Source of the DNA: Desertivirga brevis
GTDB taxonomy: Bacteria > Bacteroidota > Bacteroidia > Sphingobacteriales > Sphingobacteriaceae
Length of the DNA: 64,000 nt
Direction of reading: 5' to 3'
Assembly: GCF_017355835.1 (NCBI RefSeq)
Contig: NZ_JAFEWF010000005.1
Coordinates: 248,001 to 312,000 of the forward strand
Made by a program: the position numbers and the translations under genes. The notes beneath the pieces are model-generated. The model worked only from the letters and a program-made list of their open reading frames with translations, made no database searches and was not told the origin of the DNA. Positions 11,081-60,662 of the stretch are shown piece after piece (within the stretch, counting starts at the first letter, position 1; each line of letters starts with the position of its first letter).

Positions 11081-11286
11081 CCAAACCTAAATAATTAATA
11101 GATCCCAGTCAAGAAGAGGTGACCTTTTCTCAGTGTTCGCCTATCCAAAATATCTTTTTTTAGCCTTCAAACAGCTTCAAGGCCTATTTAAATTACTTAT
11201 ATAGCTGGTCCTAAGGACACAGCCGACATGCTCGTAATTCTTTATCCTGCTGGAACAATTAATAGGAAAACGTGTAATCGTAGAAT

Positions 11287-11724
11287 TTATGAAGATTGCT
11301 GACCCAATGCAACTAGAATGGCTCCGCCAAGCATTAATGCAACACCGGTAACCAGTTGCCAGGTCAATTTTTCGCGGAGAAAGATGACTGAGAAAATGAT
11401 TGCGAATACCAGGGATAGCCTTTCAAGAGCAGTTACATAAGAAGCTTTACCTGATTTGAGCGCATAATAGGAAAACAAAGTCGACAAAGTTGTTGCTATT
11501 CCTGCGGCTACCAGGAACATCCAGGCTTTTTTGTCAATGTCCTTAAGCATTCCGATGTTTCCCTGAAATGCTACTACTCCCCAGGTAATAGTCAGGATCA
11601 GCACCGCCTGGATGGCAAAAGCAAGACTTGAGTCTACATTCTTCAAACCCGCCTTAGTAAGTACAATTGTAATTGCAGCTGAGAAAGCTGCTAAAAGAGC
11701 GAACAATATCCACGATTGACCCAT
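11287..11724 (-). CDS. EamA-type transporter, single-domain (five helices)
   Basis: A 145-residue inner-membrane protein with five predicted helices and the EamA signature near its end (ALERLSLVFAIIFSVIFLREKLTWQLVTGVALMLGGAILVA). Full drug/metabolite transporters have ten helices in two EamA repeats; this is one repeat. Single-repeat members exist and probably work as dimers, so this need not be a truncation. No neighbour suggests a substrate. Confidence 0.8.
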   Translation of the reverse strand: MGQSWILFALLAAFSAAITIVLTKAGLKNVDSSLAFAIQAVLILTITWGVVAFQGNIGMLKDIDKKAWMFLVAAGIATTLSTLFSYYALKSGKASYVTALERLSLVFAIIFSVIFLREKLTWQLVTGVALMLGGAILVALGQQSS

Positions 11725-11870
11725 ATATCCCTTCTTAAAAAAATGGCAAAAAAGCCAATCTTTGGTGTTTTTGTATATCAGCTCTCTTAACCTCAGTTTA
11801 GTTCTTTAGTTTGCGAAAGTTTCATTTTCTACTGGGGATTATGAAAGGCGGTGATTATAATTTTCAAACA

Positions 11871-12320
11871 TCAATTGAGTGATAACTCCATTAATAAAAG
11901 AGGGTAGGGTTTTCCAAGTCCGTCCACTTCAACCCGGTCATACACTTGAAAACCCATCTTATGGTAAAAGGCAATAGCCCCAAGATTCTGTTCATTTACA
12001 TCTACTTTCTTCACACCATGAAAGTCAATAGCGAAACTTAGTAAAGCTTTACCAATTCCTTTCCCAAAAAACTTAGGCTTCACAAATAGCATCTCAACTT
12101 TATCTTCTGAAAAACCAATAAATCCTTGTATTTCGTTATCGTAATTCTTTACATAATAAAGCCTTAATTGTACTAAGTACTCGTTAAGAATCAATGGCTT
12201 GAAAAAGAGAATATCTTTTTCTGTAATGAAATCATGAGTTGCTCTTACCGAGGCTTCCCAAACTTCAGTTAATTCATTGTAATCGCAAGCACTAGCTTTG
12301 CTTATTCCACCTTTGGTCAT
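11871..12320 (-). CDS. GNAT family N-acetyltransferase
   Basis: A 149-residue acetyl-CoA-dependent acyltransferase. Motif A is visible as VEMLFVKPKFFGKGIGKALLSFAID, with the pyrophosphate-binding loop F-G-K-G-I-G-K-A. The following VDVNEQNLGAIAFYHKMGF matches motif B. Substrate cannot be inferred. Related by layout to the YhbS/PhnO-like single-domain enzymes. It sits 42 bases downstream of the GrpB gene on the same strand and may be co-transcribed. Confidence 0.85.
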   Translation of the reverse strand: MTKGGISKASACDYNELTEVWEASVRATHDFITEKDILFFKPLILNEYLVQLRLYYVKNYDNEIQGFIGFSEDKVEMLFVKPKFFGKGIGKALLSFAIDFHGVKKVDVNEQNLGAIAFYHKMGFQVYDRVEVDGLGKPYPLLLMELSLN

Positions 12321-50192: not shown

Positions 50193-51263
50193 TCAAAATT
50201 TCTTTCTAATTTTCCAAATGAAGCCATCAAGAACGTAATGGGTGGATTGAGGAAGGGCAAGCAGTGGAACCAATAACGAAAGTAGTTGACGTTCTTCAAT
50301 CTTTGGTAAATTTGAGAATGCGGGAAAAAGGTCATTATGTTCCTTCCAGATCAAGCCATCCCAAAGTCCTTCTTCCGCGTATGCCAAAGAAGCAAGGATA
50401 AGGATGAAGACTACAACGCCATACTTGCCAAAGGAAAACTTTAAGACCTTGCTTCCTTCAGACATCTCTTTACTATATCTTTTCTTTTCGAAAAACCAGA
50501 TTAAAGCCATGTAGGGGATACCATGCGATAAGACGTTGAGGGTAGTGAAGGCCATATCTCCATTATAGTAAACTATCCCAAAATACCAGGATAAGACTGT
50601 GCCCAGGATCAAGATATTTTTGGGGACATTAAACTGCTTACGTTTGTATAACAACGCTATCTCCTTAAGGATGTAAAGTACAAGTACAGCAACATATGCC
50701 CAGCCGAATAGCTGTGATAGGAAGGGCAGAGGATAACGAAGGAAATCGTTTTCAATAAACCAATTGAAGTTCCGGTTCGGGTTAAGATGCCAGAAGCAGA
50801 TCGGATAAATGGTTGCTGAATAGATCGTTAGAGAGTCGATCACTACGGATAGTTTATCTTTTTTCTCGTGTCGTGAGTATAAACGCATGATCCCGTACTG
50901 TTGCCGGATAAAGTGAAATACCGCCAGATAAGCTAATACGCGCCAGAACAATAGTTGATCAAGGCTGTAGAAAACGACACTGATGACGTAGCAGAACAAA
51001 GGAACCGCCACTAATAAGGATTTTTTTGATTTGAGTTCCCTGGGGTTAAAATAGGTGCGGTATAAAGTGCTGTAAACATGTGCCACATCCACAAATACAA
51101 TCAATATCAGCCAATAAAGAGCAGGCATTGCCTCTGATTCCTTAAACTGCATCGGGAAAAAACCGACTATCAACAAGGCCAGATAGGGTGGTAGCAGGAT
51201 AAAAATAGTGTCAGAGCTGGCAGAATTTAGCCAGGGTTGCTTGATCTCCTTAAACTTTTCCAT
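50193..51263 (-). CDS. Polytopic membrane protein of the polyamine operon
   Basis: A 356-residue membrane protein with about nine helices, no signal peptide, and family unknown to me. Conserved-looking residues include WLNSASSDTIF at the N-terminus, DVAHVYSTLYRTYF, FHFIRQQYGIMRLYSRH, LSHGIPYMALIWFFEKKR and TLNVLSHG; several histidines lie at helix ends. The histidine pattern suggests a membrane metalloenzyme but that is a guess. Last gene of the seven-gene operon; its start overlaps the amine-oxidase stop by 14 bases. Confidence 0.75.
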   Translation of the reverse strand: MEKFKEIKQPWLNSASSDTIFILLPPYLALLIVGFFPMQFKESEAMPALYWLILIVFVDVAHVYSTLYRTYFNPRELKSKKSLLVAVPLFCYVISVVFYSLDQLLFWRVLAYLAVFHFIRQQYGIMRLYSRHEKKDKLSVVIDSLTIYSATIYPICFWHLNPNRNFNWFIENDFLRYPLPFLSQLFGWAYVAVLVLYILKEIALLYKRKQFNVPKNILILGTVLSWYFGIVYYNGDMAFTTLNVLSHGIPYMALIWFFEKKRYSKEMSEGSKVLKFSFGKYGVVVFILILASLAYAEEGLWDGLIWKEHNDLFPAFSNLPKIEERQLLSLLVPLLALPQSTHYVLDGFIWKIRKKF

Positions 51264-52926
51264 TCGAATTGAGTACTTGTTTGGCTGCCTTTATTCCCTG
51301 GTAAAAGGCTTCTTCGAAAATGGAAACTCCACTTAGATCACTATGTCCAAAAAATATCTGATCATTTAGAGGCTGGTTAGCATTTCTTCTGCTTTCGCCC
51401 CAAACAAAACCTCTTGCAGGACTTATCATTCCATGTCCCCAAACCCAGAACTCTACATTTTCAATCTGTTCCGTGATATTAGGATGCAGGTACTCAAGCT
51501 CGGGCACTACTATGTCGAGCCATTGTTCATGATTCCTAGCGTATGCAGCTAGCCGGGCAACACGGGTATCGTGATCGCATAATGGAAGATAGTATGTAAT
51601 GATCTTGGAACCGCCCTCTGCTGTAATATCCTGGTGATTTGCATTGACATAACCAACGGAAGGCGTGTTATAAGCTACATTATCCCAGGAAAGTGGCGCG
51701 CCCGGTGCTCCTGTTAGGCCTTTAAGTGTAATGTTGGCAACCAGCCAGGGTGCATAGTTAAAGTCGTCATAATCCACCTCCGTCCTGGTAAAATTTCTAA
51801 GCAATTTCCTTGTTACATATTGAGGTGTTGCCATGATCAATTTTTCTGTTCTTATCTGGTAAGATTCCTTTTTCTTCAGATCATACACGTCGACCAGCAT
51901 AAAAGACTTATCTTCCTTAATTCCATAAACAAGTGTAGAGGAACGGACGTGCCGTTTAAGTCCGGCAGTAAGACCCTGCATCAAAAATCCGTTTCCTTCC
52001 GGCCAGGTTAGAACTGTTGAGCTCTCGGCGTTCACCGCTTTTCCCTTTCTACCTGCAAAGTAATGCAAACCCGCCCATGCTGATATCTTATCAAGCTTCT
52101 GGCCATAATCGTCCTTACAACAATATTCAAGATACCATAGGAGGTAAGGGGAGTTGAAGCCGTTTTTGTTTAAGTAATCGCTGAATAATAGTTTATCGAG
52201 TTTCCGCCATTCGGCATCTGTCGAACTTCGATCCAGGGGAATATCGAAGGCGTACTTTCCATCATTTCCTCTAACATATCTCAGTTCCTCCATTAAAGCC
52301 AGAAATCTTTTTATCTGGTCTTTATCCTCTGCTGGTATACCAAATTCAGGAATAAGGCCTTCCTGCCACTGTCCGTTGATGAGTAATCTTTCCTCAGGGT
52401 CGAAACAGAGTGAATATTCATTATAAAAAGGGAGACCGTTCTCGAAATGAGTGATCAGGTTACATTCCTGATAAAAATCAATCAGATCTTTATTTTCATT
52501 ATTGGCAGGGGTAACATAGTGTGCACCCAAAGGGTATTTTGAAACCTTCGATTCCCCGAACTTTGAGTTTCCCCCTGGCTGGTTCTCTAATTCCAGCAGT
52601 TCAAAATTCTCTAAGCCATTTTTCTTCAGCCAACGCGCAGCTGAAAGACCGGAAATTCCTCCTCCAATAACTAAAACACCAACATCCCTGGAGTAAGAGG
52701 GTTTAGGCAGTGATACCTTGTCCCTCAGAATATGTCCAGCGCTTGCATCGGGTCCTTTAAGTTCCGCTGGTATACCTGAATAAGGAGAAGACCCGGGCTT
52801 AATTTTTCGGATACAGGCATTGAGCGCAATGCCAGAACAAATAAGTCCCGCACGAAGCATAAATCCTCTTCTGCTGATACTATTTGTAACTGAGTTTCTA
52901 AAGAACCGATGCCCACTCATCCTCAA
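51250..52926 (-). CDS. Tat-exported FAD-dependent amine oxidase-like protein
   Basis: A 558-residue flavoprotein. The N-terminus has a twin-arginine signal (SISRRGFMLRAG) followed by a hydrophobic stretch and a Cys (ALNAC), so it may be a periplasmic lipoprotein. The FAD loop is VLVIGGGISGLSAARWLKKNG, with ELENQPGGNSKFG after it. LIMATPQYVTRKLL and the end VWGESRRNANQPLNDQIFFGHSDLSGVSIFEEAFYQG fit the flavin amine-oxidase/phytoene desaturase superfamily. Given its neighbours it may oxidise polyamines or their derivatives. Overlaps the spermidine-synthase gene by 29 bases. Confidence 0.85.
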   Translation of the reverse strand: MRMSGHRFFRNSVTNSISRRGFMLRAGLICSGIALNACIRKIKPGSSPYSGIPAELKGPDASAGHILRDKVSLPKPSYSRDVGVLVIGGGISGLSAARWLKKNGLENFELLELENQPGGNSKFGESKVSKYPLGAHYVTPANNENKDLIDFYQECNLITHFENGLPFYNEYSLCFDPEERLLINGQWQEGLIPEFGIPAEDKDQIKRFLALMEELRYVRGNDGKYAFDIPLDRSSTDAEWRKLDKLLFSDYLNKNGFNSPYLLWYLEYCCKDDYGQKLDKISAWAGLHYFAGRKGKAVNAESSTVLTWPEGNGFLMQGLTAGLKRHVRSSTLVYGIKEDKSFMLVDVYDLKKKESYQIRTEKLIMATPQYVTRKLLRNFTRTEVDYDDFNYAPWLVANITLKGLTGAPGAPLSWDNVAYNTPSVGYVNANHQDITAEGGSKIITYYLPLCDHDTRVARLAAYARNHEQWLDIVVPELEYLHPNITEQIENVEFWVWGHGMISPARGFVWGESRRNANQPLNDQIFFGHSDLSGVSIFEEAFYQGIKAAKQVLNSNGKV

Positions 52927-54406
52927 AATATTTCACCAGCACCTGATTGTTCAATTTATTCACTTCCGTCTCTCTCTTGGCCATGTCTTTTGGAAAATAC
53001 AGCATTTGATCCATGCTTTCCTTACTTACGAACTTAAGGTTGGAAATAAAGGAATTCGGCTTCTTATAGAAACTCTTCTTCATCGCCATGATATATCCCC
53101 ATTCGCCGAAAGATGGAACATAGTTATGATAGGGAACAGTGTGCAAACCTACAGATTCAAGGGTTTTATTGACGGTCCAGAACGATTTAGGGGCTACAAA
53201 AGGAGATGTAGATTGTACGACCATGATCCCGTCAGGATTTAATAGTTCCTTAATTATTGAATAAAAGGAATTTGTATATAATTTTCCTACAGAATAGTTA
53301 GAAGGATCCGGGAAATCAACAACTATAAAATCAAAGGTATCCTTTTGCTGACGGGCCCAGGTAAAAGCATCTGCATTAATCACCTTCACTTTCTTCGACA
53401 GTAATGATTTCTTGTTCAAACTCAATAACATCTCATTCTTTTGAAACAAAGAGGTCATTCCTTTGTCCAGGTCAACAAGGGTAATTTGCTCTACATTAGG
53501 ATATTTAAGTATTTCTCTAACCGCCAAACCGTCGCCGCCTCCCATTATCAAAACCTTACGTGCTCGCGGCAGAGCCTGAAGTCCGGGATGTACCAGGGCC
53601 TCATGATAACGGTACTCGTCGTCGGAACTGAACTGAAGATTTCCGTTCAGGAATAAACGCAATACTTTTCCTCGTTTAGTTAGGATGATGCGTTGGTAAG
53701 AGGTACTCTTGGAATAAATAATGGTGTCATTATAACTGAGACTTTCAGAGAAATTGGTGATCTTTTCGGCGTAAACAAAACCCAGCAGCAGACCAAGGAT
53801 ACTTATTATAGAGGCAGATTGAAGGTAATTAACCGCTGGTATCTCTTTTTTAAAATTTACACAGACCAATAAAGCAACAGAGACATTGAGGATACCAAAC
53901 AGATATGCTGTTTTTACCAAGCCTAAATAAGGGATCAATACCAGCGGAAAGATAAGGGATGCAAGCAAGGCCCCAATATAGTCGAAGGTAAACACCTTCG
54001 ACACGAGATCCTTAAACTCAAAACGGTTCTGAAGGATACGCATCAGCAAGGGGATTTCCAAACCTACCAATATCCCCGTAAGGGATACCAGACCGTACAA
54101 CAGTACCCTGAAAGAGGCAATGCTTTCAAATAGAAGAAATAGTAAAGTAGAACTTATTCCACCAACAATTCCAACCAATATTTCTATTTGGATGAACCAG
54201 GATAAGATATTTTTCTCAAAGTACTTGGACAACCAGCTGCCAATTCCCATTGAAAATAAATAAACACCAATAATGGTAGAGAACTGCGTTACGGAATCTC
54301 CAAGAAGGTAACTGGCAAGAGTTCCGGCAATCAGTTCATAAATTAACCCGCATGTTGCAACTACAAATACAGAGAGCAGCAACACTGCAGGAAGTTTGTT
54401 ATTCAT
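52898..54406 (-). CDS. speE: Membrane-embedded spermidine synthase-like aminopropyltransferase
   Basis: A 502-residue protein. Residues 1-210 have about seven membrane helices, and residues about 225-480 are a spermidine synthase domain. The SAM/dcSAM loop is MGGGDGLAVREIL (GGGDG at 289-293), the acidic residue follows in VDLDKGM, the substrate loop is NGNLQFSSDDEYRYHEALVHP, and DFPDPSNYSVGKLYTNSFY matches the D-x-x-D-P region. Typical cytosolic SpeE is about 290 residues; the added helices put this enzyme at the membrane. Confidence 0.9.
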   Translation of the reverse strand: MNNKLPAVLLLSVFVVATCGLIYELIAGTLASYLLGDSVTQFSTIIGVYLFSMGIGSWLSKYFEKNILSWFIQIEILVGIVGGISSTLLFLLFESIASFRVLLYGLVSLTGILVGLEIPLLMRILQNRFEFKDLVSKVFTFDYIGALLASLIFPLVLIPYLGLVKTAYLFGILNVSVALLVCVNFKKEIPAVNYLQSASIISILGLLLGFVYAEKITNFSESLSYNDTIIYSKSTSYQRIILTKRGKVLRLFLNGNLQFSSDDEYRYHEALVHPGLQALPRARKVLIMGGGDGLAVREILKYPNVEQITLVDLDKGMTSLFQKNEMLLSLNKKSLLSKKVKVINADAFTWARQQKDTFDFIVVDFPDPSNYSVGKLYTNSFYSIIKELLNPDGIMVVQSTSPFVAPKSFWTVNKTLESVGLHTVPYHNYVPSFGEWGYIMAMKKSFYKKPNSFISNLKFVSKESMDQMLYFPKDMAKRETEVNKLNNQVLVKYFEDEWASVL

Positions 54407-54411
54407 ATTTT

Positions 54412-54636
54412 CTATCCGTGAATGGCAGAACTAATAATTATAGCGATAGCAATAATAAATGCAGCACAAACAATAGCAAGTGCGTTATTCTTCTTATCAA
54501 CGATCTCTTTCCAGAGATTTTCCGGAGTGATCTTTTCTATTATAACGAAGGAAATAACCAGGATTACAATACCAAGTACTGAATAAACCAGGGATGCAAC
54601 TAAATACTTGTAATTGATCAGTTCGTGTAAACTCAT
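54412..54636 (-). CDS. DUF350 family small membrane protein
   Basis: A 74-residue inner-membrane protein with two helices (YLVASLVYSVLGIVILVISFVII and NALAIVCAAFIIAIAIIISSAI) joined by EKITPENLWKEIVDKKNN. This matches one DUF350 (YjfL-like) repeat. Its stop is five bases from the spermidine-synthase start, so they are coupled. The family has no known function but often lies near stress or polyamine genes. Confidence 0.88.
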   Translation of the reverse strand: MSLHELINYKYLVASLVYSVLGIVILVISFVIIEKITPENLWKEIVDKKNNALAIVCAAFIIAIAIIISSAIHG

Positions 54637-54684
54637 TTTCTTATTTTTTTGAAGTTTTCTTATTATTTGAGATGACTGGTTAAC

Positions 54685-54861
54685 CTACTTGTGGTAAAAC
54701 CTTGCTCCTGAACCAAAATGTCCACGGCTCGTATTTGTATACTCGGTGTTTTTTTCTGCCTTATCTGCCCAAAATGTGATTCCATTCCAGGTAGCATATC
54801 CAAAATAAAACAGAATAACCAGCATAAATCCTATATAGTATTTTAATGGTTTGATATCCAT
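54685..54861 (-). CDS. 58-residue membrane protein of the polyamine operon
   Basis: A short frame from ATG at 54861: MDIKPLKYYIGFMLVIL, then a helix (FYFGYATWNGITFWA) and a polar tail ending SRGHFGSGARFYHK. It has one membrane helix with the positive inside end at the N-terminus and a conserved-looking, glycine-rich periplasmic C-terminus. It fills the only gap in an otherwise tightly packed operon, three bases after the DUF4178 gene stop. I know no family name. The fit of frame, start and operon spacing makes it a likely real gene. Confidence 0.72.
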   Translation of the reverse strand: MDIKPLKYYIGFMLVILFYFGYATWNGITFWADKAEKNTEYTNTSRGHFGSGARFYHK

Positions 54862-54864
54862 ATC

Positions 54865-56214
54865 TTAATTATCAGTTTCGTAAGGAGAATAGTCACTGTT
54901 CATCCAACGCTTCCTTTCGAAGCTTGTCCAGCGGATGTAACTAATGATTGGGTAAATACTTAGTAGAAGCCAGACTAGTAGGATGTTACGCCACATCAAT
55001 ACGTTTGCAGTCACCGCAATATGGAGATAGGTTTGAGTGGGATCACCTGAAGCTGGATAAATATTAAGATGATATTTACCTTCAGGGATTTTCGAGAGGA
55101 TTATAGATTGGCTCTTCGATCCCTCAGACCATGATTCACCACTTTCATAGCCGTGATAGTATTCAATTCCTTTAGTTACTTCCCAGGTTTCATTTGTGCC
55201 TTCGTTAACCAAAACAACTGTCGCTTCCATCCAGCTATTATCAACATTTGCGCGTACTTCTATTTCGAGTGTTGTTCTCCCATATGGTTGCTCAAAAGAA
55301 GAGCTTAGGAATGGCTTGTATTCGTAAGTGCCTGAACTGGAACCCAAATAACTAGTTGAATCTGAGGAGTTTCGCTCAAATGAAATATTAAAATCACTAT
55401 TAAGCAATTCCCGCTCGGGCCTGATTGTCCTAAAAAGGAATACAACCAGCAATACAGCAAGAGCAGCTAGAATACTGACCTTGGCCAGGGTGTCAAAACT
55501 AGCTCCCTGTCGGGACGGCTGATTTGCCCCAATCTCAACTTTAGGTGGAAAACTCTCCGCGTTCAATCCAAAACCTTCAGCAATTTCTTCCAGCTCAGTA
55601 TATTCCCCCCAAAAATACTGTGCTTTGTTACTTCCGGAGTTTCCAACTTCCTTGAAAATAATAAAGGGTGGGGCAATGAATTCGTGCACCCTGGGGCGGT
55701 CATCCATAACATCGGAATCGAATTCCCCAATTGCACCAGTAATTACAGGCGTATACTTATTAAAAATCCGGTAATCGATATTGTTATGGGTGGCAGTTGT
55801 TGAATCGCTATACGCTTTTTCAAGGGAAGGTTCCCATGTCTGGTCAACAATAAAATTCCAATGACCGTTAAACTCCGACAATGTTGCATATCCCTTCTCG
55901 TAGTTATATAGCAAATATTCTTTCCAGCCATAGCTTGTACCTTTCTCTTTCTTTTCGAGGTAGGCTATCACCCGGAACTTATGGTCCTTTAAGGTTCCTA
56001 GGGCCCCAAGTGGAATAAGGGGTTTTGCTTTAACAGGAGGAACGTTTTTTTGGACTTTCGGTGTATAAGCAGTAACAAAACGAATAAAGGAATTACACGA
56101 ACTGCAAATACAATAATCACTTCCATCAGGATCATAAAGTGTAATTGCTTCATGGCATTTCGGGCACTTGAAGGTTTCCGGTTCCGGAAAAGAAAGCTGT
56201 TTTACTGTTGCCAT
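54865..56214 (-). CDS. DUF4178 protein with zinc ribbon and membrane helices
   Basis: A 449-residue protein. Residues 14-42 are a zinc ribbon (CPKC at 17-20 and CICSSC at 35-40). A DUF4178-type domain (GTSYGWKEYLLYNYEKGYATLSEFNGHWNFI) lies at about 70-150. Helices lie near 247-268 and near 405-428, with a soluble all-beta region between them. Starts two bases after the SpeD-like gene, so it is the second gene of the operon. DUF4178 proteins recur next to DUF350 and polyamine genes, as far as I recall; function unknown. Confidence 0.82.
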   Translation of the reverse strand: MATVKQLSFPEPETFKCPKCHEAITLYDPDGSDYCICSSCNSFIRFVTAYTPKVQKNVPPVKAKPLIPLGALGTLKDHKFRVIAYLEKKEKGTSYGWKEYLLYNYEKGYATLSEFNGHWNFIVDQTWEPSLEKAYSDSTTATHNNIDYRIFNKYTPVITGAIGEFDSDVMDDRPRVHEFIAPPFIIFKEVGNSGSNKAQYFWGEYTELEEIAEGFGLNAESFPPKVEIGANQPSRQGASFDTLAKVSILAALAVLLVVFLFRTIRPERELLNSDFNISFERNSSDSTSYLGSSSGTYEYKPFLSSSFEQPYGRTTLEIEVRANVDNSWMEATVVLVNEGTNETWEVTKGIEYYHGYESGESWSEGSKSQSIILSKIPEGKYHLNIYPASGDPTQTYLHIAVTANVLMWRNILLVWLLLSIYPIISYIRWTSFERKRWMNSDYSPYETDN

Positions 56215-56216
56215 AA

Positions 56217-56570
56217 TTAGCGCCTTAATTCGGTTTTCTGCAATTCGCTGCCTTCAAAAAATGCTAAGACTTCCGTGTAGATCGCTCTAACCTTTTCCGT
56301 ATTGTCCTTCCTGAAATTGGAAAGGAATATATCAAAAGTGGCAAGCTGAAACTCCGGCCAGGTATGTATAGAAAGATGGGATTCTGTAAGACAAATTACA
56401 GATGTGAAGCCTCCCTGATCGAAGTCATGATAAACTTCGCCAACGGAAGATAGCTCAAACCTCGTGATGAGTTTTTCAAAAAGTTCTCTCGAAGCTACCG
56501 AAGAGTAGAGAAGATCAGCTCTCTCAGTTTTAAATTCAGCTAAAATGTGTAACCCGGGATTATATTCCAT
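56217..56570 (-). CDS. speD: SpeD family protein (AdoMet decarboxylase homologue)
   Basis: A 117-residue prokaryotic class SpeD homologue, a pyruvoyl enzyme made by self-cleavage between Glu63 and Ser64 in LTESHLSIHTWPE. The His of the active site is His69. The usual proton-donor cysteine (Cys in the D-x-F-x-C-G block of Thermotoga SpeD) is Ser84 here (FDIFLSN). This could mean a changed substrate, since some SpeD homologues have become ornithine or arginine decarboxylases. First gene of the seven-gene operon, with a -7 element upstream. Confidence 0.87.
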   Translation of the reverse strand: MEYNPGLHILAEFKTERADLLYSSVASRELFEKLITRFELSSVGEVYHDFDQGGFTSVICLTESHLSIHTWPEFQLATFDIFLSNFRKDNTEKVRAIYTEVLAFFEGSELQKTELRR

Positions 56571-56594: not shown

Positions 56595-56788
56595 AATATT
56601 ATTTGAATATATGGAAATACGAGGGGCCAGGTAAGTGCATAACACATATTTTTTTCGCACATCATTCTTTAAATTCTTACAAATTTTTATGTTTGAGAGA
56701 ATTAAATCATTTCTAATGCGAAATAAACCTTGTCTGGAAACCTCAAATAAAAACATTTCTATAAACTCTTATACTCTTGCTATTTAAC

Positions 56789-58102
56789 ATGCAGTTTACG
56801 CAGGAACAGATTACTAAGCTAGCTCCCGATGATGCTTCAGCCAAAGCAGGTAAAGCTCTTGCCAGTAATTCCAAGTGGGTATTAAGGTGCGTGCATGAGA
56901 AAGCCTTGTGGGGTGACTGCCAGGGAAGTGGTAAAAATCCTTACAGAACGATTGTAGATCTAACTAATCTTGCTTTCAAATGCTCTTGTCCCAGTCGCAA
57001 ATTCCCCTGTAAACATGGGCTTGGCTTACTCTTCCTTTACGCTGCCAACCCTGATGTGTTTTCTGCAGAAAAGGAACTGCCTGAACATGTAGGTGAGTGG
57101 CTTGGCAAGCGCGCCGAAAGGGCAGAAAGCAAACCCATTCCGGTTGAAAAAGCAGCACCGGATGAACAGGCACAGCAAAAACGTATTGAAGCAAGAGAGA
57201 AAAAGGTAAGGGGCGGCATTGAAGAATTAAGGCTTTGGATGAAGGATGTGGTAAGAACTGGAATTATGAATGTGCCACAAGATCCTTATCAGTTTAATCA
57301 AAATATCATTGCCCGGATGGTTGATTCTCAGGCCGCTGGATTAGCGAATCATTTAAGGAGGATCAACAAAATTAACTATTACCAGGAAGGCTGGCAGAAG
57401 GCACTTATTAAGCAGTTAAGCAAGACCTATCTGTTAACAGAGGCATATGAAAATATTGAGGCCCTAAACACTGAACTTCAATCAGACATTAAAACCTTAA
57501 TAGGATGGAACACACCGAAAGAGGATGTGTTTAATTCAACAGGTATAAAAGACGAGTGGCTGATCTTAAGTATTTCGAACGAAGAAGAGGGAAATTTAAG
57601 GACCGAAAAGATCTGGCTTTATGGTTTAGGGTGTCAAAAATTTGCACTTATCCTAAATTTTTATGCTGGGGCACAACTTAGTGGACACGCTTTTGTGGAA
57701 GGGGGAACAGTAAAAGGTGAACTGGCGTTCTACCCGTCAACAACCCCGCTACGGGGATTAATGAAAGAACCGTTTGAAATAAATGGAAGGTTCATACAAC
57801 CTGGCATTAGAAGTTCTATATCAACACTTTTGGAGGATGTGACAAGTAAATTTTCACTTAATCCGTTTGTTTCTGAATTACCCTTTATTTTATCTTCTTG
57901 CCGGATAGCTCTTAATGGAAAAAACTGGTACATTATAGGAGATGATGGGAGTGGTTTGCGACTTTCTAATAATGAAGAGGAATGCTGGACTGTCCTTTCG
58001 ATCAGTAAAGGAAAAATGTTTCCTTGTTTCGGGATCTATGAAAATGAGTCGTTCAATATCCAGGCTTTATGGCCTTCCAATAGATACTATTCGATAAAAT
58101 GA
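56789..58102 (+). CDS. SWIM zinc-finger protein (YehQ-like)
   Basis: A 437-residue protein with an N-terminal SWIM finger. CSCPSRKFPCKHGLGLL places the metal ligands at Cys65, Cys67, Cys74 and His76 (CxC-x6-CxH). SWIM domains bind DNA or protein partners. Residues 90-440 are helical then beta-rich with no named domain. I use the ATG at 56789; a TTG 12 bases earlier is in frame. The stop overlaps the next start by four bases (ATGA). It corresponds to E. coli YehQ in this conserved set. First gene of the MoxR-VWA operon. Confidence 0.88.
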   Translation: MQFTQEQITKLAPDDASAKAGKALASNSKWVLRCVHEKALWGDCQGSGKNPYRTIVDLTNLAFKCSCPSRKFPCKHGLGLLFLYAANPDVFSAEKELPEHVGEWLGKRAERAESKPIPVEKAAPDEQAQQKRIEAREKKVRGGIEELRLWMKDVVRTGIMNVPQDPYQFNQNIIARMVDSQAAGLANHLRRINKINYYQEGWQKALIKQLSKTYLLTEAYENIEALNTELQSDIKTLIGWNTPKEDVFNSTGIKDEWLILSISNEEEGNLRTEKIWLYGLGCQKFALILNFYAGAQLSGHAFVEGGTVKGELAFYPSTTPLRGLMKEPFEINGRFIQPGIRSSISTLLEDVTSKFSLNPFVSELPFILSSCRIALNGKNWYIIGDDGSGLRLSNNEEECWTVLSISKGKMFPCFGIYENESFNIQALWPSNRYYSIK

Positions 58103-59568
58103 GCCTCCAGAACGATATTATAAAAACAGCCCTGCTGGGTACTGACAAAATACAATTTCAACTTCCAGAAGAGTTGTCGGATATTAGGGATGGTATCACC
58201 GCAACGCAGGAGGATAAAGAAGATGCCTTCCTAAAATCGGCTGCAATAGCTTTTCTCTATGAGGAGAGCGGCCAGGAGGCTAAGAATGCATTAAATGCTA
58301 TCCCTGAATGTCCTGATGATACCAGCGAAGAGTTGAGTGCAAGTACAAGTCAGCACTTAGAAGATGCGCTCCTATCAAAAGACGAAGTATTTTTCGAATA
58401 CCTGTTAACCAAAACCCTCGAGGCCGATAAAACCGTTTCTTCTAAATTGGTACCGCTGTTGCTAAACAAAGCAATTGAACAGAAAAGAAAAGCTGAAAAA
58501 CTGATCGCTGTTTGCGGGAAAACAGGAGAGTGGCTTTGCTCTTTAAACCCAAACTGGCAGAGACTAACCCTGAGGAATGAGGAGCAAATCGATTGGGAAA
58601 CGGGGAGCCTCGAAGACCGTAAGCTCTTTCTGGCACGACTAAGGACGACAGATCCTGATAAAGCTTTGCAGCTTCTCCAGGCAGTATTTGAGCAGGAAAA
58701 TGCAAATAATAGAGCTGAATTTCTGGAGATACTAGAAATTGGTATATCGGTACAAGATGAAGCCTTTCTACTGGAAGCATTAAAAGATAAAAGCAAGAAA
58801 GTGAAGGAAGTAGCCCTGAGATTACTTCAACCCTTACAGGGAACAGAAATTAACAACCTTTATATAAACTATTTTCTGGATTCTGTATCAATTAAAGAAG
58901 AACGTAGTCTGCTTATTCTTAAAAAAAAGGTCATCGAAATAGATCCAGCAGTCCTTCCATCTGATGACATGTTCAGATATGGGATAGAGAAAGTCAGTTC
59001 TGTTAAAGGTGTGGACGACCAGATATTCTGGCTTAGCCAGATCCTAAGTTTTATAGATCCTTCTGCTTTAGAAGAACGGTATCAAATAACCCAAGGTGAG
59101 TGGTTTAAGCTATTAATTGAGCATAAACAAAGCTCCGTTTTTATTCCTTACTTAGCCACTGCTGCTATTCGTTTCCGGAACACACCTCTTGCTAAGAACC
59201 TCCTCGCTCATGTCGAAGCTTTTCGAGAGGAATTACTCTTGGTCCTTTCTGAGGATGAACGCTACGAGTGGTATGATAAATACCTGGAGTCGAGGTTTCC
59301 CATTATATTAGGACTGTTGCTCAATGATCAGTATTCGATAATTCCGCAACAACTGGCAGAACGGATTGTAAAAAGGCTGGCGGTAAATCCATACGTGATA
59401 ACCCAGCCAATCTATACGAGGCTGGCTCTATCGCTACCAGTCAGCATTAGGATCTTTTTGAGCAAATATATTGAGGAAGGTGCTGACGACTATCAGAGAA
59501 GATACTTTAGTAGCCAGGCGTCTAATATGTTACATTATATTGAATTAAGAGAAGGTTTAACATTTTAA
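58099..59568 (+). CDS. DUF5691 family protein (helical repeat)
   Basis: A 489-residue cytosolic protein. It starts MSLQNDIIKTALLGTDKI, characteristic of DUF5691 with the TALLGTDK block. The body is mostly helical with repeated Leu-rich segments (ALQLLQAVFEQENANNRAEF, KSKKVKEVALRLLQPLQG) as in HEAT-type scaffolds. It ends 11 bases before the ATPase gene. Likely an adaptor for the MoxR complex. Confidence 0.82.
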   Translation: MSLQNDIIKTALLGTDKIQFQLPEELSDIRDGITATQEDKEDAFLKSAAIAFLYEESGQEAKNALNAIPECPDDTSEELSASTSQHLEDALLSKDEVFFEYLLTKTLEADKTVSSKLVPLLLNKAIEQKRKAEKLIAVCGKTGEWLCSLNPNWQRLTLRNEEQIDWETGSLEDRKLFLARLRTTDPDKALQLLQAVFEQENANNRAEFLEILEIGISVQDEAFLLEALKDKSKKVKEVALRLLQPLQGTEINNLYINYFLDSVSIKEERSLLILKKKVIEIDPAVLPSDDMFRYGIEKVSSVKGVDDQIFWLSQILSFIDPSALEERYQITQGEWFKLLIEHKQSSVFIPYLATAAIRFRNTPLAKNLLAHVEAFREELLLVLSEDERYEWYDKYLESRFPIILGLLLNDQYSIIPQQLAERIVKRLAVNPYVITQPIYTRLALSLPVSIRIFLSKYIEEGADDYQRRYFSSQASNMLHYIELREGLTF

Positions 59569-59579
59569 ATAAAGATATT

Positions 59580-60662
59580 TTGACACAAACTATTTTGCGG
59601 CAAGCAGCTGAGCAGCAATTTGCGCAGGAAATTGAAGAAATAAAGTTACAGGATAAACATGCGAAACCTGTCAGTTGGCAAATGTCACCAAATGCTGTGG
59701 TTACCTATCTTATGGGGGGAACGCTGAATAATGGCTTTGAGATCACTCCAAAATATATTGGTAACAGGCGTCTGATGGAAATTGCAGTTGCAACTCTTAC
59801 TACCGACAGAGCGCTCTTACTTTACGGGCTACCGGGAACAGCGAAATCATGGGTATCAGAGCATCTTGCTGCGGCTATTACCGGCGACTCTAATTTGGTA
59901 ATACAGGGTACAGCAGGTATTAGCGAAGAAGCTGTTCGGTATGGTTGGAACTATGCTATGCTTTTATCAGCGGGACCAGTAGCTGAAGCCATTGTGGAAA
60001 CTCCGGTAATGCGGGCAATGAAGCAAGGGAAGATCGTTCGTATAGAAGAACTTACAAGAATTGGCTCTGATGTTCAGGACTCCCTTATCACCATCCTTTC
60101 CGAAAAAATGCTTCCAGTCCCGGAACTTAATACTCAGGTGCAAGCTGTACGCGGCTTTAACGTGATTGCAACCGCTAATAACAGGGATAAAGGTGTGAAT
60201 GAATTATCCAGTGCTTTGAAACGTCGTTTTAATACTGTTATCCTACCAGTTCCTTCTAGTATGGAAGAAGAAGTTGATATCGTTCAACAACGAGTATCCA
60301 GCTTTAGCAGAGCTATAGAACTACCAATACAAAAACCAGTAACAGAAGAAATTAAACGGATTGTTACCATCTTTAGGGAATTGAGGAACGGTGTTTCTTT
60401 GGATGGAAAAACAAAACTTAAATCTCCGTCTGGAACATTAAGTACCGCCGAGGCTATTTCTGTTATGAATAGTGGCCTGGCCCTGGCTTATCATTTTGGT
60501 GATGGCCTTGTGAAGGCTGATGATATAGCAAGTGGTGTGATAGGCGCTGTAGTAAAAGATCCGGTTCAGGATAAGATCGTGATGCAGGAATATATGGAGA
60601 CCGTGCTTAAACAACGTGACGGCTGGAAAGATATTTATCGTGCTTGCCGGGATATTATTTAA
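59580..60662 (+). CDS. MoxR-type AAA+ ATPase (YehL-like)
   Basis: A 360-residue ATPase starting at a TTG. Walker A is GLPGTAKS (83-90), Walker B is IVRIEEL (152-158), sensor 1 is VIATANNRD (196-203) and the arginine finger region is SALKRRFN. It is the helical-insert MoxR group, whose members act with VWA proteins as chaperones or remodelling engines. Stop overlaps nothing; the DUF5682 gene starts four bases later. Confidence 0.92.
   Translation: MTQTILRQAAEQQFAQEIEEIKLQDKHAKPVSWQMSPNAVVTYLMGGTLNNGFEITPKYIGNRRLMEIAVATLTTDRALLLYGLPGTAKSWVSEHLAAAITGDSNLVIQGTAGISEEAVRYGWNYAMLLSAGPVAEAIVETPVMRAMKQGKIVRIEELTRIGSDVQDSLITILSEKMLPVPELNTQVQAVRGFNVIATANNRDKGVNELSSALKRRFNTVILPVPSSMEEEVDIVQQRVSSFSRAIELPIQKPVTEEIKRIVTIFRELRNGVSLDGKTKLKSPSGTLSTAEAISVMNSGLALAYHFGDGLVKADDIASGVIGAVVKDPVQDKIVMQEYMETVLKQRDGWKDIYRACRDII

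Follow-up and report, generated by a model that had tools for sequence, protein, structure and literature searches.

Sequence analysis of a 64,000-nt stretch of the Desertivirga brevis genome (contig NZ_JAFEWF010000005.1, positions 248,001 to 312,000; hereafter the window, whose coordinates are used throughout) indicated a seven-gene operon on its minus strand (56570 to 50193). On balance, it is probable that its membrane-fused relative of spermidine synthase (SpeE fusion) aminopropylates the C-terminal lysine of a predicted-exported 58-aa protein encoded in the same operon. All seven open reading frames (ORFs) lie on the minus strand, in agreement with an earlier note on this DNA that had described seven closely spaced genes. 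The features of the operon are as follows.

56217 to 56570, minus strand: SpeD-like S-adenosylmethionine (AdoMet) decarboxylase of the class 1b type, 117 aa (PF02675, 73.9 bits; PDB alignment with 2iii/1tlu).
54865 to 56214, minus strand: DUF4178-family protein with N-terminal CxxC...CxxC and hydrophobic segments at residues 243-261 and approximately 406-429 (linked by a locally built profile).
54685 to 54861, minus strand: 58-aa protein with one hydrophobic segment, the candidate aminopropyl acceptor (ORF, alignment, and hydropathy).
54688 to 54699, minus strand: codons of the FYHK with which the 58-aa protein ends (no variation at H57 or K58 across 35 aligned rows).
54412 to 54636, minus strand: DUF350 protein, 74 aa, with two hydrophobic segments (PF03994, 56.2 bits), missing in some relatives.
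52898 to 54406, minus strand: membrane-fused aminopropyltransferase (SpeE fusion), 502 aa (NF002956, 677.4 bits; AlphaFold2 (AF2) model with a mean predicted local distance difference test (pLDDT) score of 91.2).
53771 to 54406, minus strand: seven predicted transmembrane (TM) segments of the SpeE fusion, N-terminus inside (hydropathy and charge bias).
52910 to 53752, minus strand: aminopropyltransferase domain, predicted to be extracytoplasmic, with GGGDG, YHE, and D364xxD367P conserved.
51250 to 52920, minus strand: flavin adenine dinucleotide (FAD) amine-oxidase-family protein, a predicted lipoprotein of the twin-arginine translocation (Tat) pathway (PF01593 and PF13450; twin Arg and lipobox-like motif).
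52813 to 52872, minus strand: twin Arg through lipobox-like Cys of the amine oxidase (sequence).
50193 to 51263, minus strand: polytopic membrane protein with His61, 116, 158, 246, and 341 invariant in 44 rows (AF2 mean pLDDT 89.2).

The evidence for the acceptor lies in the tail of the 58-aa protein. Residues Y9, G27, G50, H57, and K58 were invariant in its family alignment (35 rows), and N38, F55, and Y56 were nearly so. The protein ends in FYHK, and the terminal residue was Lys in all aligned relatives. Relatives missed by phmmer were read from the gap before DUF350 and end in NGFYHK, NHFYHK, and GPGYHK (loci L029, L032, and L031, respectively). At or near the same place in planctomycete, alphaproteobacterial, Lachnobacterium-like, and other loci, predicted-exported proteins end in -GGK, -GPSHK, -SSGK, or -GGFGK.

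To count such tails, a species-genome collection was scanned with the fusion enzyme. Of the resulting 51 loci, one with 39 residues matched (L051) was removed from every count. The 128 loci analyzed comprised scan loci L001-L050, six plasmid records, and samples of Bacteroidota (20), Planctomycetota (15), Myxococcota (30), and Bacillota (7), labeled by phylum after seed loci L001, L037, L041, and L044. A tail was accepted when a same-strand frame stopped no more than 1500 bases before or 300 bases after the SpeE start, ended in G, S, or H followed by K, and carried at least seven residues of the set G/S/Y/F/H/R among its last 16; this rule was shaped by earlier exploratory tail listings. The anchor start was the previous stop codon for the controls and for the 37 fresh loci (Myxococcota and Bacillota), and the first start codon for the remaining loci. 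Accepted tails were found in 97 of the 128 loci compared with 3 of 157 gene-like control anchors from 20 regions of the same genomes (Fisher p = 4e-44), and two of the three control matches were one ORF reached from two anchors. The counts were 38/38 for L001-L038, 3/12 for L039-L050, 3/6 for the plasmid records, 16/20 for Bacteroidota, 14/15 for Planctomycetota, 16/30 for Myxococcota, and 7/7 for Bacillota. Because L001-L038 are closely related, the frequency is better judged from the phylum samples.

Among the fresh loci, 23 of 37 had an accepted tail (Fisher p = 3e-17). A prediction fixed before these loci were obtained held in 31 of the 37, but also in 42 of the 157 controls. A tighter form with the same wide window gave 29/37 versus 9/157, and a tight form confined to the region just upstream gave 23/37 versus 0/157; both were selected after the looser, previously fixed rule had first been applied. 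When the 97 tail proteins were compared without their last 12 residues (phmmer, E 1e-3), they fell into 18 groups. This grouping cut the weight of "unrelated" tail proteins, and the pre-set rule proved loose. Because the tighter counts hold, our estimate for aminopropylation of the terminal lysine was left unchanged.

The SpeE fusion matched NF002956 "polyamine aminopropyltransferase" (PRK03612, a fusion of a major facilitator superfamily (MFS)/7TM part with spermidine synthase (SpdSyn)) over residues 7-500, with 677.4 bits against a cut-off of 472. Its AF2 model showed an aminopropyltransferase fold, and the catalytic residues were conserved. Canonical SpeD/SpeE synthesis has a soluble SpeE, whereas here seven hydrophobic segments precede the catalytic domain. 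The charge bias of these sequences predicts that both the catalytic domain and the 58-aa tail lie outside the cytoplasm. Because the AF2 model gives residues 131-184 as one helix, hydropathy and charges were the basis for counting seven TM segments instead of six; this stretch should cross the membrane twice, since its flanking loops are both rich in Lys/Arg.

In the proposed mechanism, SpeD would make the aminopropyl donor in the cytosol. The catalytic domain would be kept on the outer side of the membrane by the seven-TM part of the enzyme, which may also carry the donor across. The product would be N-epsilon-(3-aminopropyl)lysine at the tail end, similar to a protein-joined spermidine. Such a terminal lysine, H2N-(CH2)3-NH-(CH2)4-CH(COOH)-NH-, would be spermidine-like with one additional carboxylated carbon. 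The predicted Tat-exported oxidase may trim or oxidize this cap, for example at the secondary amine, possibly together with the His-rich last protein. We infer the acceptor, the donor transport, the topology, the oxidase substrate, and the purpose of the modification alike, the last possibly being envelope or membrane stress. The earlier suggestion that a polyamine is oxidized or attached to an envelope component is thereby narrowed to one candidate acceptor, the C-terminal Lys of the 58-aa protein.

Of the 31 loci without a tail under the rule, 15 had one elsewhere or of slightly different composition (L039, L041, L043, L088, L090, L122, L133, L152, L156, L188, L203, L204, L205, L207, and L208); L090 (-NRVK) and L122 (-NHYHK), for example, were scored as misses. 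No accepted tail was found in the other 16, which comprise four Streptomyces/Streptosporangium loci, L048, L050, L135, L136, and eight Myxococcota loci. A frame 4.3 kb upstream in L045/L049, ending in -AAGK/-AIGK, was not accepted. Two lipoprotein-like frames upstream of SpeE in L181 (9585-12061) end in -RGPK and -RGCK but are not rich in Gly/Ser; the -RGPK frame, directly upstream, was likewise not accepted.

A homologue of the ATP-grasp ligases YjfC/YgiC was nearby in only four of the 128 loci (L048, L050, L135, and L136), all of them among the 16 in which no accepted tail was found. The chance of all four falling among the 16 of 128 is 1820/10,668,000, or approximately 2e-4, for a split that was noticed post hoc. 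No such ligase was found in L001-L038, the 37 fresh loci, or the seven window proteins. Both E. coli YjfC and YgiC carry the RefSeq name peptide--spermidine ligase, and the DUF1190 proteins beside them end in -GHWGG (YjfM) and -RSMGG (YgiB). A divergent ORF ending in -SYGG was present in three of the four ligase loci, and -GG ends may be the substrates of these ligases. The Lys tail and the ligase could replace each other because a -GG tail joined to spermidine would resemble an aminopropylated Lys tail. Separately, the fusion enzymes of L048, L135, and L136, each beside an ATP-grasp ligase, have GGGEG, compared with GGGDG in the other 42 aligned.

Several observations weigh against lysine tail aminopropylation by an outward-facing enzyme. 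The acceptor assignment comes from gene and sequence comparison. A periplasmic enzyme would require a putative export step for the donor, and the AF2 model draws residues 131-184 as a single helix. The sister ATP-grasp ligases require ATP and are presumably cytosolic. The SpeD of this clade has Ser in place of a Cys described as required for decarboxylation. The tail proteins are not all independent, as 56 of the 97 (Bacteroidota and some other-phylum loci) belong to the largest group. No accepted tail was found in the Streptomyces or Streptosporangium loci L045, L046, L047, and L049, which have weaker enzyme matches, or in the Myxococcota loci L181, L182, L190, L192, L193, L196, L201, and L202. 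DUF4178 was undetected in all eight of the latter, and DUF350 in L181 and L202. Finally, because the loci were chosen by the enzyme, the tail could belong with a different gene of the cluster. However, each of DUF350, DUF4178, SpeD, and the oxidase is absent from part of the 128 loci; near the enzyme, DUF350 was present in 99, DUF4178 in 89, and the oxidase in 72.

Four alternatives were weighed and are given in falling order of probability. The first, which we regard as unlikely, is that the enzyme acts on a lipid of the membrane or on another envelope molecule, the Lys tail serving, for example, as a contact with the enzyme or DUF350. It agrees with the membrane fusion and the presence of DUF350, and a passage of PMC11237479 mentions aminopropylation of other substrates and membrane structure; however, it leaves unexplained both the Lys ends of 18 exported-protein groups beside the enzyme and the absence of a tail from the four loci with YjfC/YgiC homologues. 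Also unlikely is the same modification by a cytosolic catalytic domain that acts before the tail is exported. The donor is cytosolic and the long modeled helix could mean six TM segments, but the Lys/Arg-rich loops on both sides of it imply a double crossing.

Synthesis of a free polyamine, spermidine or similar, with the tail binding or sensing the product, is quite improbable, although SpeD with SpeE is the classic combination and the catalytic motifs are retained. Li et al. reportedly found in 2019 that such fusions gave no spermidine and no complementation. Moreover, a search of 36 related genomes, with that of L009 left out, found a deoxyhypusine-synthase-like gene (PF01916) in 36/36, a family to which, as stated in a passage of PMC10407285, the homospermidine synthase SpeY belongs. 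Very improbable is a processing or sorting signal, in which a carboxypeptidase exposes -GG for a ligase or the Lys serves anchoring: -GGK is indeed the E. coli -GG tail plus one Lys, but no YjfC/YgiC homologue lies near any Lys-tail locus and -FYHK holds no GG.

Other polyamine genes were sought in the same genomes. None of the 36 had an nspC-type decarboxylase over the cut-off. No second full-length SpeE (PF01564) was found in 35 of 36, where the other matches were frames of approximately 185-226 aa with 20-33 bits, which answers the earlier question of a housekeeping speE for these relatives. The PF01916, nspC, and speE results together support the earlier proposal of a dedicated membrane-bound aminopropyl pathway apart from the main triamine route. 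G021 was the one genome in which a second frame of this kind, full-length and stand-alone, was found (290 aa; contig 10, 70032-70565).

Gene order was examined in 37 Bacteroidota scan loci (L001-L036 and L038). The order SpeD, DUF4178, 58-aa protein, DUF350, SpeE, amine oxidase, and last gene was conserved across them; with synteny this strong, the loss of order that it had named as counting against its proposal was not seen. DUF4178, SpeE, the oxidase, and the last gene were each present in 37/37. SpeD was present in 36/37, the exception (L027) ending before the SpeD position. The 58-aa protein was found by profile in 35/37, and inspection of the gap revealed it in L031 and L032. DUF350 was present in 29/37, the loci without it being L015, L017, L020, L021, L023, L024, L027, and L038. 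Its absence extended to the whole of these eight genomes, while a search of three comparison genomes recovered theirs in 3/3. DUF350 is thus dispensable in those relatives. PspA was found in 7 of the 36 related genomes, always on other contigs: in six of the eight lacking DUF350 and in 1 of the 28 others.

As for the individual genes, the Ser of class 1b self-cleavage (ESH) is present in SpeD: TESHLSIHTWPE. In the PDB alignment (2iii/1tlu), Ser84 aligns with the expected active-site Cys (Cys83 in T. maritima). This position was Ser in 36/36 SpeD copies of the scan Bacteroidota, and among 24 other readable copies it was Cys in 22 and Ser in two; eight more were unreadable by pattern.

The oxidase is 100% identical to a database copy and carries a twin Arg followed by a lipobox-like Cys (RR...LNAC in the window), a loose pattern that matched 35 of 41 rows. 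The last polytopic protein is 94% identical to a Desertivirga arenae protein, and its AF2 model, although confident, had no clear match in the PDB. Its gene was present in 56 loci, accompanied by the oxidase in 56/56. In L003, the last gene is split over two frames (11147-12232), possibly by a frameshift.

Of the two gene overlaps noted earlier, that of 14 bases was found between the oxidase and the last gene. That of 29 bases between SpeE and the oxidase holds with a TTG start at 52926; it is 23 bases with the ATG at 52920, at which the database copy P0121 (556 aa) begins. A Pfam scan of the seven proteins gave AdoMet_dc (73.9 bits), DUF350 (56.2 bits), Spermine_synth (140.8 bits), and Amino_oxidase (31.4 bits). 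The domain labels assigned earlier were upheld by Pfam/NCBI models, except that the Pfam DUF4178 model gave no match to the window protein. That assignment comes from a locally built profile, which scored 299 bits on an annotated DUF4178 protein of Novosphingobium (L087). The DUF4178 protein itself can carry a Lys tail where no separate tail protein was seen.

Beside the operon and outside it, a divergent cluster (56777-60662) encodes a SWIM zinc-finger protein and two proteins of 489 and 360 aa, the shorter of which looks ATPase-like by eye.

Li et al. 2019 (Biochem J 476:2579) reportedly described clusters of AdoMet decarboxylase (AdoMetDC), MFS-SpdSyn fusion, and DUF350, and are said to have suspected a non-putrescine acceptor without naming one. 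The window operon likewise combines an AdoMetDC, a membrane-fused SpdSyn-like protein, and DUF350, and adds a candidate acceptor. The claim that the system was undescribed did not stand, since its operon class has been published with the substrate unnamed (Ravi et al. 2024; PMC11237479). According to passages of that paper, a 7TM-spermine-synthase fusion occurs with DUF350, DUF4178, and a lipoprotein, and aminopropylation of other substrates was suggested; its main text nowhere uses the word "lysine". Fusion, DUF350, and DUF4178 (by profile link only) in one operon are common to the window and its PspA-linked operon group 2. No domain of the CesT/Tir-PspA dyad of that group was found among the seven proteins of the window operon, which additionally encodes SpeD, a Tat amine oxidase, and a His-rich protein.

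The E. coli YjfC/YgiC-DUF1190 system is similar in that it includes DUF350 (yjfL), together with a partner that resembles a membrane protein or lipoprotein and has a C-terminus rich in Gly, Ser, and Arg. It differs in that its ligase joins spermidine and its partner tails end in -GG rather than Lys, and no such ligase was found near window-type operons. Aminopropyl units on protein lysines occur naturally in diatom silaffins, although these are eukaryotic, concern internal lysines and silica formation, and involve proposed enzymes, according to passages of PMC3820600. No description of terminal-Lys aminopropylation in bacteria was found in the literature on aminopropyltransferases and peptide-spermidine ligases (main texts searched), and a passage of a 2018 review notes that aminopropyl-using protein modifications may merit investigation (PMC6302742).

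For the widespread AdoMetDC/membrane-SpdSyn/DUF350 clusters, the Lys tail offers a candidate acceptor on one 58-residue protein. We give about even chances to the broader proposal that, in several bacterial phyla, exported proteins receive an aminopropyl mark on their C-terminal Lys from a membrane-fused spermidine-synthase relative with an outward-facing active site. Such a mark would be the bacterial equivalent of hypusine and of silaffin lysines, and would give polyamine-capped surface tails by a route other than the joining of spermidine to -GG tails by ATP-grasp ligases. If true, this would be a protein modification newly named in bacteria, within the literature searched, and DUF350, DUF4178, DUF1190, and polyamine enzymes would share one theme, that of polyamine-capped tails outside the membrane.

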